From contig PLDY01000054.1 in assembly GCA_003136895.1 (NCBI GenBank), forward strand, positions 18,537 through 70,139: DNA of 51,603 nt, in the 5' to 3' direction. Under the pieces are notes generated by a model that searched no databases, was not told the origin of the DNA, and was given only the letters and a program-made list of their open reading frames with translations. Shown piece by piece: positions 2,887-43,077 of the stretch (its first letter is position 1; every line of letters starts with the position of its first letter). Made by a program: the position numbers and the translations under genes. The stretch comes from Candidatus Erabacter solicola (GTDB lineage: Bacteria > Vulcanimicrobiota > Vulcanimicrobiia > Vulcanimicrobiales > Vulcanimicrobiaceae).

Positions 2887-3888
<1,002 letters not shown>

Positions 3889-40182: not shown

Positions 40183-40239
40183 GCGAGTTTGGCGCATGCT
40201 GCAACTTTTGGCGCCAGGGCTACGTTATTAAGACTTGAC

Positions 40240-41052
40240 GTGCCGGAGCTCCCCGAAGTCGAGACGATCGCCCGCGGCCTCCAAAAGGCGCTGGCGGGCA
40301 AGCAGATCGTCTCCGCGGAGGTGCGCCTCCCCAAGGTCGTCTCGCCGGAGCGTTCGCGCTTCATGGCCGAGATCGCCGGGGAGACGATCGACTCCGTCGG
40401 CCGGCGCGGCAAGTTCGTGGTCGTCTCGCTCGCGTCTGGGCGATCGCTCGTCGTTCATCTCAGGATGACCGGGCGACTCATCGTTCAGACCGCGGGGACC
40501 ACGAACCCGGAGCCCTACACCAACGTGCTGTTGGCGTTTGGCGATGGGACGCGTCTTGCTTTCGCCGACGTCCGTCAGTTCGGCAGGATGCGCCTGGTCG
40601 GGCCTGAAGAACCGTGGGCTGCCGAGGTCGGCTTGGAGCCCCTCTCTGACGATTTCACGTTCGAGCGGTTCTCCGGCCTGTTGGACGGGCGAAGCACACC
40701 GATAAAAGTGTTCTTGCTCGACCAGCGTCGCGTTGCGGGAATCGGCAATATCTACGCCTGCGAGGCGCTCTGGGAAGCGAAAATCCATCCTGGCCGCCCG
40801 GCGGGGTCGCTCTCAAGAGAACGGCGCCGTCGCTTACACGCCTCGATTCAGTCCGTGCTCCGGCGCGCGATCGACCAGCGTGGAACCAGCGTAGACGATT
40901 ACGTGGACGCCGAAGGGCTGCGGGGCGGCTTTCAAAACCAACTGAGCGTCTACAGCCGGGACGGCCAAGGTTGTCTCCGCTGCGGACGCAGCATCGTTCG
41001 AACGGTACTCGCCCAACGGGGCACGTGGTCGTGTCGAACCTGTCAACGCTAA
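40240..41052 (+). CDS. mutM: Formamidopyrimidine-DNA glycosylase (MutM/Fpg)
   Basis: This is a 270-residue base-excision repair glycosylase/AP lyase that removes 8-oxoguanine. The N-terminus PELPEVETIA (after start-Met) supplies catalytic Pro and Glu. Lys in GRRGKFVVV and the FADVRQFGRM loop follow. The C-terminal zinc finger is CLRC...CRTC, and NIYACEALW is the helix-two-turn-helix hallmark. The start is GTG at 40240, because translation from 40189 would add 17 residues that break the PELPE requirement for a free N-terminal Pro. Confidence 0.95.
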   Translation: MPELPEVETIARGLQKALAGKQIVSAEVRLPKVVSPERSRFMAEIAGETIDSVGRRGKFVVVSLASGRSLVVHLRMTGRLIVQTAGTTNPEPYTNVLLAFGDGTRLAFADVRQFGRMRLVGPEEPWAAEVGLEPLSDDFTFERFSGLLDGRSTPIKVFLLDQRRVAGIGNIYACEALWEAKIHPGRPAGSLSRERRRRLHASIQSVLRRAIDQRGTSVDDYVDAEGLRGGFQNQLSVYSRDGQGCLRCGRSIVRTVLAQRGTWSCRTCQR

Positions 41053-41153
41053 ACGGTATTCTTCAATAATTTTTGCCTCGTAAGAGGAACTGCGCAAAGC
41101 GCGGGGATGTGACCGGGCGATTCGATCCGGCGCATCGAGTAAAGGGGAAACGC
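41053..41153 (+). promoter_or_regulatory. Structured leader upstream of rpsA
   Basis: The 101-nt mutM-rpsA gap contains hairpin CCTC-GTAA-GAGG (41076-41087) and hairpin TCGAT-N7-ATCGA (41122-41138). The ribosome-binding AAAGGGG (41141-41147) follows, 6 nt before the ATT at 41154. S1 mRNA leaders in other bacteria are folded and autoregulated. AT-rich CAATAATTTTTG near 41064 may hold a -10 element. The regulatory role is an inference. Confidence 0.4.
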
Positions 41154-42374
41154 ATTACTATCACCGACATCGCTCCGCCGCAGGCGGAAGAACTCGAAGA
41201 CCAACTCGCGCTCGAGCAGCGCATGTATGAGGAAAGCCTCAAAGTTCTCGACGAAGGGCAAGTCCTCACCGGCGTCATCGTCGCGAAGTATCAAGACGAG
41301 TTACTCGTCGATATCGGGGGTAAGTCGGAAGGCATTCTGAGCTTTCGCGAACTTTCGCTCGCGATCGAGCCCAAAGAACTGAAGGTCGGCGATAAGCTCG
41401 AGGTCATGATCCACCGGATCGACGACCAAGACGGAACGCTGTTTCTCTCCGAGCGCCGGGCGCGCGCGCTCAAGACCTGGGAAAAGGTCATCCAGGCGCA
41501 CGAGAACGACGAAGTGATCGAAGCCACCGTGACGCAAGTCGTCAAGGGCGGCGTCCTCGTCGACCTCGGCATGCGCGGTTTCGTTCCGGCCTCGCAGATC
41601 CGTCGCCAGCCCGTCGGCAATCTCGACGAATTGGTCGGCAGGCATCTGCGCCTCAAGGTGATCGATCTCGACCACAAGCGGCACCGTGTCGTTCTTTCGC
41701 AGCGGTTAGTGCTCGAGGAAGAACTCAACGCCAAGAAGACCGAACTGCTCGGCACGCTCGCAGTCGGGCAGATCCGCGAAGGCGTCGTCGTCCGGCTCGC
41801 GGAGTTCGGCGCGTTCGTCGACCTCGGGGGCATCGACGGCCTGATCCACAACAGTGAACTTTCGTACGCGCGGATCAAGCATCCGAGCGAAGTGGTGAAG
41901 ATCGGCGACATCGTCCAAGTCGAAGTGATGAAGTTCGACCCGGAAGCGAAGAAGGTTTCGCTCTCGCTCAAGCACGCGTTGCCCGATCCGTGGGTCGAAC
42001 ACGCCGACAAGCTGGTCGAAGGTCAGCGGCTGATCGCTCAAGTCGTCAAGGTGACGCCGAACTACTTACTCGTCGAAATCATCCCGGGCGTGCTCGCGAT
42101 GGTTCCGAAGGGCGAGTTCGAGCCGACCAAGCAGTACAGCCCCGGCGAAGAAGTCGAGGTCACGATCCTCACGGTGAACCATTCCACGCGGCGCATCACG
42201 GGCTCGATCCAGCACGTGATGGATATCCCGCCGGAAGAGTTCGCTGCGTTCGCGGTCGACGGCGAAGTCGGCACCCTCGGCGAAGCGCTCGACATTCCAA
42301 CCGCCGACCCGCTGGAAGCAAGCGCCGAACCGATGGACGCCATCGTCGAACCGATGGAGCCGGCGGTCGAGTAA
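41154..42374 (+). CDS. rpsA: 30S ribosomal protein S1, four S1 domains; likely ATT start
   Basis: This is a 406-residue protein if started at ATT 41154, in which AAAGGGG lies 6 nt upstream. Alternatives with canonical codons (TTG 41073, GTG 41109) lack a Shine-Dalgarno match and add basic residues unlike S1. Four S1 (OB-fold) domains are visible near residues 36-105, 120-188, 205-275 and 290-357, each with a GxxxxG...GAFVDLGG-type signature. An acidic tail (EPMDAIVEPMEPAVE) ends it. S1 is the ribosomal RNA-binding protein for initiation. The domain count matches Firmicute- and cyanobacterial-type S1 rather than six-domain enteric S1. Confidence 0.93.
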   Translation: MTITDIAPPQAEELEDQLALEQRMYEESLKVLDEGQVLTGVIVAKYQDELLVDIGGKSEGILSFRELSLAIEPKELKVGDKLEVMIHRIDDQDGTLFLSERRARALKTWEKVIQAHENDEVIEATVTQVVKGGVLVDLGMRGFVPASQIRRQPVGNLDELVGRHLRLKVIDLDHKRHRVVLSQRLVLEEELNAKKTELLGTLAVGQIREGVVVRLAEFGAFVDLGGIDGLIHNSELSYARIKHPSEVVKIGDIVQVEVMKFDPEAKKVSLSLKHALPDPWVEHADKLVEGQRLIAQVVKVTPNYLLVEIIPGVLAMVPKGEFEPTKQYSPGEEVEVTILTVNHSTRRITGSIQHVMDIPPEEFAAFAVDGEVGTLGEALDIPTADPLEASAEPMDAIVEPMEPAVE

Positions 42375-42471
42375 GCCTTCCACCCGGTCCAATCGAACGG
42401 CGGATCTCGGATGATGGCCGCCGCTTTCGTTTTGCATGGAAGTCGCTGCGCCGCAGGGCAGTAGAAATAGC

Positions 42472-43077
42472 GTGAAGCTGCGCGTTGGGCTTACGGGCGG
42501 GATCGGAGCGGGGAAGAGCGAGGTTGCGCGCGCGTTCGACGGGTTGGGTGCGCTCACGATCGATGCCGACGAGTTGGCGCGGCGTGCCGTCGAGCCGGGC
42601 AGTGAAGGTCTCGCGCAGATCCGCGCGCGTTGGCCGCAGTCCGTGCTCGCCGATGGAAGGCTCGACCGCGCGGCGCTGGCTGCCCTCGTCTTCAATGACG
42701 TCGCGCAGCGCGAGTACTTGAACGCGATCGTTCACCCGATCGTGCGCCGGCTCGCCGCCGAACGCGAAGCGAGCGCCGGCGCGGACCAGATCGTCGTGCA
42801 CGAAGTCCCGCTGTTGTTCGAGACCGGATTCGCGGATCGATGCGACGCGACGATCGTGGTCGTCGCGCCGGCCGAACTCCGCATCGAGCGTACAATGTCG
42901 CGTAGCGGGCTTTCGCGAGAAGAGATCGAGCGGCGCATGGCGGCGCAGATCGATCCGGCCCAAGCGCGCGAGCGCACGGATTTCACGATCGAAAACGATG
43001 GAACGCTCGAGGAATTGCGCGCGCGCACCGAGCGCATCTATCGTGCGCTCGCCGGCGTGGAGCGCGCGAAACCTTAA
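42472..43077 (+). CDS. coaE: Dephospho-CoA kinase (CoaE)
   Basis: This is a 201-residue P-loop kinase catalysing the last step of CoA synthesis (3'-phosphorylation of dephospho-CoA). It has the P-loop GLTGGIGAGKS near residues 6-16, DADELARRAVEPGS, the HPIVRR segment and the VVHEVPLLFETG lid. GTG 42472 gives the family-typical VKLRVGLTGG N-terminus; ATG 42436 would add 12 residues. Its stop overlaps the TonB-C gene stop on the other strand in a TTAA palindrome. Confidence 0.94.
   Translation: MKLRVGLTGGIGAGKSEVARAFDGLGALTIDADELARRAVEPGSEGLAQIRARWPQSVLADGRLDRAALAALVFNDVAQREYLNAIVHPIVRRLAAEREASAGADQIVVHEVPLLFETGFADRCDATIVVVAPAELRIERTMSRSGLSREEIERRMAAQIDPAQARERTDFTIENDGTLEELRARTERIYRALAGVERAKP

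Follow-up and report, generated by a model that had tools for sequence, protein, structure and literature searches.

The rpsA locus of Candidatus Erabacter solicola raises the question at which codon translation of ribosomal protein S1 begins and whether this codon might itself be an element of control. The window, i.e., the whole stretch of 51,603 nucleotides analysed here, belongs to a 2.85-Mb draft genome of 176 contigs (G000; locus on contig C35). Its forward strand carries rpsA (41154..42374, stop codon 42372-42374), with mutM as its 5' neighbour and, on the 3' side, coaE for dephospho-CoA kinase (42436..43077, forward strand). The initial annotation had placed the start of rpsA at an ATT codon (41154..41156, forward strand). 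The reading favoured here, to which we assign a probability of about 0.72, is that throughout the order Vulcanimicrobiales, a group of soil bacteria, rpsA starts at AUU or AUC behind a strong Shine-Dalgarno (SD) sequence and is subject to discrimination by initiation factor IF3, with a folded leader RNA as an added layer in the sub-clade of the window.

Assignment of the product to 30S ribosomal protein S1 (bS1; 406 aa, four S1 domains) is based on four above-cut-off matches to PF00575 at the locus (ribosomal S1 proteins usually have four to six) and on the alignment of residues 23-300 with E. coli bS1 (E 7e-84). The segment that marks the N-terminus of S1 proteins bound to the ribosome, in E. 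coli FEESL, is also found in the window protein, residues 23-29 (RMYEESL) corresponding to residues 7-13 of E. coli S1 (QLFEESL) within the longer stretches RMYEESLKVLD and QLFEESLKEIE. The NCBIfam equivalog cut-offs for 30S S1, which are tuned to longer S1 proteins or to those of other phyla, were missed (best 317.7 bits versus 524; nearest 307 versus 368). About nine genomes of the family harbour a second S1-like protein that matches domains 2-4 only (40-49 % identity; e.g., G008:C1:1464343-1465152, G015:C245 and G007:C61).

In the window, the SD sequence AAAGGGG (41141..41147, forward strand) ends 6 nt 5' of the ATT, an arrangement described in the initial annotation and verified here. The annotated N-terminus MTITDIAPPQ is correct provided that formylmethionine is inserted at ATT. 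The reading frame is open from 41070 to the stop codon, the preceding stop being TAA at 41067-41069, and contains only two canonical codons 5' of ATT, namely TTG 41073 and GTG 41109. Both lack an SD sequence, as had been stated at the outset; owing to the open frame, the window alone does not suffice to exclude them. The first canonical codon 3' of ATT is ATG 41223, likewise without an SD sequence.

The comparison was therefore extended to 60 relatives and to a scan of named genomes (metagenome-assembled genomes of 'Candidatus Eremiobacterota'), yielding 77 distinct rpsA loci, 63 of them in the order Vulcanimicrobiales and 14 in a sister family. The aligned start codon is ATC in 49, ATT in 13 and ATA in one of the 63 order loci, and ATG, GTG or TTG in none. 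Homologous SD sequences precede it in the relatives (AAGGTAGG, AAAGGATGG and similar). In 38 of the 63 loci, the frame is devoid of ATG, GTG and TTG from the upstream in-frame stop, 1-37 codons away, to at least codon 20 downstream of the start. In Vulcanimicrobium alpinum (L015), this stop precedes the start by nine codons and the next canonical codon lies 51 codons inside rpsA. Its genome (G008), a gap-free hybrid assembly in a single contig, very probably represents the cultured V. alpinum WC8-2, a member of the same family as the window (Vulcanimicrobiaceae) for which a chromosome has been published (PMC9758169).

The alignment profile displays the SD sequence, an invariant A and T, a third base that is C, T or A and never G, and from there on codon-type constraint. 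Conservation of the protein (EEDQLALEQRLYEESL) sets in 5' of the first canonical codon and includes S1 residues 1-22. The comparison of N-termini among homologues that had been proposed beforehand thus revealed codons conserved from 41154 onwards and none upstream. In the sister family, all 14 loci have ATG at the aligned position, preceded at similar spacing by SD sequences of the AAGGTGA type. Phylogenetic analysis separates the AUH and AUG groups with 100/100 support and implies about five start-codon changes overall. Since the changes are so few and ATC and ATT differ by a transition, the absence of ATG is strong evidence, but does not amount to 63 independent observations.

The precise choice of codon is less clear-cut at some loci. 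Two adjacent AUH codons are present in L014, L036, L037 and L114, and in L122, L125 and L139, where ATT directly follows the SD sequence, the start was assigned to an ATC nine bases further on. A TTG three codons downstream represents a possible alternative start in the second family of the order (f2; L040-L042, three loci of one genus), and a canonical codon occurs 4-8 codons downstream of AUH in L019, L020, L037, L126 and L127. These downstream alternatives leave the 38 strict cases untouched. As a separate observation, mini-ORFs of two to three codons (ATG GAA AGC TAA etc.) precede rpsA in L019, L023, L101, L104 and L105; they begin in or just after the SD sequence, end 1-4 nt before ATC and are not conserved elsewhere.

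A sequencing or assembly error concealing a true ATG, as might be suspected from the draft state of the window genome, is of negligible probability, because all 63 loci agree, although the genomes are independent, come from many studies and include the finished G008 assembly. An N-terminally extended S1 starting at TTG 41073 or GTG 41109 would be compatible with the open frame of the window; neither codon, however, is conserved among the relatives (e.g., GTG 41109 is replaced by GCG in L008), and several of these have frame-shifting indels or in-frame stops in this region, the latter 1-9 codons before the start. Moreover, the region 5' of ATT behaves as a structured non-coding RNA (see below), so that an upstream start is most improbable. 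The same applies to a start at ATG 41223, which would yield a protein beginning MYEESL. The window shares this codon with some close relatives, and it lies near the position of the E. coli start relative to FEESL, E. coli S1 having just six residues ahead of the aligned stretch. It is replaced by CTC, CTG or CTT in most relatives, whose first canonical codon is located 20-100 codons into the gene and in many cases inside S1 domain 1; in addition, the SD sequence precedes ATT and residues 1-22 are conserved. Judged from these alignments, ATT 41154-41156 is almost certainly the true start codon of rpsA, as the initial annotation had proposed, and the fixed non-canonical start is a well-supported property of the whole order, i.e., of one clade.

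A relaxed start code of the entire lineage, e.g., due to an altered initiator tRNA or IF3, would deprive the rpsA codon of any special significance, and non-canonical starts are indeed also observed in infC, mreB and recR. Nevertheless, this explanation is very unlikely in view of the control genes. The start of mutM for formamidopyrimidine-DNA glycosylase (40237..41052, forward strand) is fixed by the N-terminus PELPEVE, the window gene having GTG as the codon before this motif; 47 of 48 loci have a canonical codon there, which varies between GTG and ATG. A survey of 385 orthologue pairs, for which about 1.2 Mb per genome of G008 and G005 were compared, retrieved 23 pairs in which neither genome has a canonical codon where the alignment begins or upstream of it. 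Upon inspection, nearly all of these proved to be short overruns of the alignment, leaving about three of 385 pairs, with rpsA, mreB and recR as the only convincing genes; these counts are lower bounds, since genes of the infC kind with an in-frame upstream canonical codon escape this strict survey. A broader screen by SD energy was set aside, as false positives inside genes predominated. The mutM control and the orthologue survey together argue against a relaxed genetic code in the lineage. Furthermore, the 16S rRNA 3' end carries a normal anti-SD sequence (CACCTCCTTTCT), and a gene with a normal IF3 N-terminal domain is present. Three CAU tRNA genes were read as candidates for the initiator. 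Separately from the normal tRNA set, more than 20 tRNA genes covering most specificities are densely packed within 4 kb of the window genome (G000:C52, 25867-29717; L187-L190), which suggests that this contig derives from a phage or another mobile element.

The exceptions among the other genes differ in kind. The mreB start drifts across the order (TTG 11, GTG 4, CTG 3, ATC 3 and ATG 1), and the window copy (2887-3867, reverse strand) has an apparent CTG start at 3865-3867 in the context GGGAGAGAACCTCAA-CTG-GATATCGGG. For recR, a probable ATC start adjoins the stop codon of ybaB at a distance of 1-4 nt (G008:C1 about 38890; G005:C3 about 687821), which possibly reflects re-initiation at a near-cognate codon. 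The infC start, in turn, is ATA in 21 and ATC in one of the 22 family loci, ATC being found also in three loci of f2; ATA accounts for 0.4 % of the isoleucine codons in V. alpinum. The IF3 N-terminus in the family reads IARPLRIN... (loci L063-L086; window genome copy L068, G000:C91 around 38719). In another family of the phylum, infC seemingly starts with ACG (GGGAGGTGAAAGGAT-ACG-AGTAAGGACTTC in L060), while other members of the phylum have ATA or ATT.

The SD sequences of the two rpsA groups also differ in predicted pairing strength, the median being about -7.8 kcal/mol in the AUH clade versus about -3.7 kcal/mol in the AUG clade. Combination of a weak codon with a strengthened SD sequence appears unlike simple down-tuning by drift and would be expected if the codon itself were useful.

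In the sub-clade of the window (8 genomes, all with ATT), the 80 bases 5' of ATT show conservation and are predicted to form hairpins: (i) P1 (41076..41087, forward strand; CCTC-GTAA-GAGG) with 41076-41079 pairing to 41084-41087, (ii) P2 (41090..41104, forward strand; CTGCGC-AAA-GCGCGG) with 41090-41095 pairing to 41099-41104, and (iii) P3 (41106..41136, forward strand; GATGTG-A-CCGGGCG...CG-A-TCCGG-CGCATC), which contains three compensatory pairs and holds the false start GTG 41109 in its stem. Across P1-P3, five pairs show compensatory changes among the eight related sequences of this one sub-clade. Of the alignment cells, 95.7 % are capable of pairing as compared to 29-47 % when the alignment is slid, and the covariation measures were reached by 1-4 of 500 shuffles, the pair-type count by 98 of 500. 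These eight related sequences provide moderate support for a conserved leader fold P1-P3; the comparative evidence is better than that from folding the window leader alone (z = -1.88, weak). A possible fourth hairpin, P4 (41139..41158, forward strand), would pair GTAA 41139-41142 with TTAC 41155-41158, thus engaging the last two bases of ATT and leaving the SD sequence mostly in the loop. P4 is nearly invariant, therefore provides no evidence from covariation and is unproven.

In the window genome and six sub-clade relatives, a covariance model of the leader had a single hit each, located before rpsA, and L014 gave a weak match. The sequences used for training necessarily match, so that the absence of matches at other sites is the informative result. 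A search of the leader against Rfam returned no match better than chance. In the remaining order, AU-rich spacers precede rpsA, in which leader structure is not detectable.

How such a start may be employed is suggested by known systems. IF3 represses initiation at codons other than AUG, GUG and UUG, and infC exploits this for feedback, having an AUU start with IF3 autoregulation in E. coli and ATC in Streptomyces (PMC5472188). The rpsA gene studied here resembles infC in that a translation-related gene is kept at a near-cognate AUH codon preceded by an SD sequence. S1, unlike IF3, is not the fidelity factor, and direct feedback of the product through the codon is therefore not expected; IF3 sensitivity of rpsA is presumed from E. 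coli and Streptomyces. A further parallel is sigR of Streptomyces, the GTC start of which is held down by IF3 as demonstrated experimentally (Feeney et al. 2017, PMC5472188). There, too, a gene other than infC is held at a non-canonical start, which limits its product relative to a partner, and the start is routinely misannotated; codon and gene differ, and repression by IF3 is a prediction in case of rpsA.

The rpsA gene of E. coli is itself controlled by its product, S1 repressing its own mRNA in a manner that requires the absence of a canonical SD sequence (PMC10931766). In gamma-proteobacterial rpsA, special control of translation goes along with folded elements of the leader at the initiation site, to which the putative hairpins of the window sub-clade may be a parallel. 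The design is reversed, however, since rpsA here combines a strong SD sequence with a weak codon, and the two leaders are unrelated as far as tested by the Rfam search. Among ribosomal protein genes, rpsT (S20) of E. coli starts with UUG. Leader and initiation codon of rpsT reportedly affect its autoregulation (Parsons et al., 1988). The likeness lies in a ribosomal protein gene for whose autoregulation the initiation codon matters; UUG is a standard alternative start, whereas AUU and AUC are not. A preprint by Gvozdjak and Samanta from 2020 is said to treat genes that prefer non-AUG starts. In the openly licensed literature searched, a link between rpsA and AUU or other non-AUG starts was not found, nor a relevant one between Eremiobacterota and start codons.

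For rpsA of Vulcanimicrobiales (Vulcanimicrobiota, formerly Eremiobacterota/WPS-2), it is proposed that initiator fMet-tRNA would read AUU or AUC behind the strong SD sequence, and that IF3 would destabilise the initiation complexes at these codons, keeping S1 synthesis below the level set by the SD sequence. Once 30S subunits exceed IF3, discrimination would relax and S1 synthesis would rise along with that of IF3. As infC starts with AUA or AUC in the same genomes, IF3 and S1 would be co-controlled. By analogy with the systems above, such IF3-sensitive control of rpsA appears probable. In the sub-clade of the window, the three-hairpin leader together with the possible P4, which would engage part of ATT, would probably constitute a second, rpsA-specific layer. 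S1 might, speculatively, bind to this leader of its own mRNA, and feedback by this route is doubtful. The fuller scheme, with S1 locked to AUU/AUC in a fidelity circuit shared with IF3 (infC at AUA) and an S1-bound leader over the start codon in the sub-clade, is plausible, with the odds somewhat against it. The inferred link between initiation fidelity and autoregulation, already suggested by the initial annotation, fits with the non-canonical infC start, the strengthened SD sequence and, in the sub-clade, a leader found only before rpsA.

The most serious competitor of this scheme accepts AUU or AUC as the real start, but attributes to it a constant low rate of initiation that tunes S1 stoichiometry, without feedback or a switch by IF3. 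Tolerance of weak starts in mreB of some species (CTG or ATC) without obvious regulatory reason speaks for this explanation, as do the restriction of detectable leader structure to one sub-clade and the unsupported pairing of P4. A constant rate could, however, be obtained with AUG and a weaker SD sequence; instead, the SD sequence is strengthened and the codon kept weak. Moreover, infC is arranged alike and in other bacteria is a known feedback device. Constant tuning is thus regarded as unlikely, and control of rpsA by IF3 discrimination at AUU/AUC as the preferred reading.

Conserved non-canonical starts of regulatory function have been described in very few cases (infC, sigR). In Vulcanimicrobiales, a non-canonical start is kept order-wide by the gene of a ribosomal protein that is essential and highly expressed. 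For genome annotation, this means that gene finders confined to ATG, GTG and TTG will misplace the starts of rpsA, infC and some mreB genes in Vulcanimicrobiota. Occurrence of the non-canonical rpsA start in a cultured species renders the proposal directly testable. The finding suggests that regulation by IF3 fidelity may extend beyond infC and, if true, S1 homeostasis in this order would be organized in a manner opposite to that of E. coli, with a strong SD sequence and a weak codon in place of a weak SD sequence and AUG.
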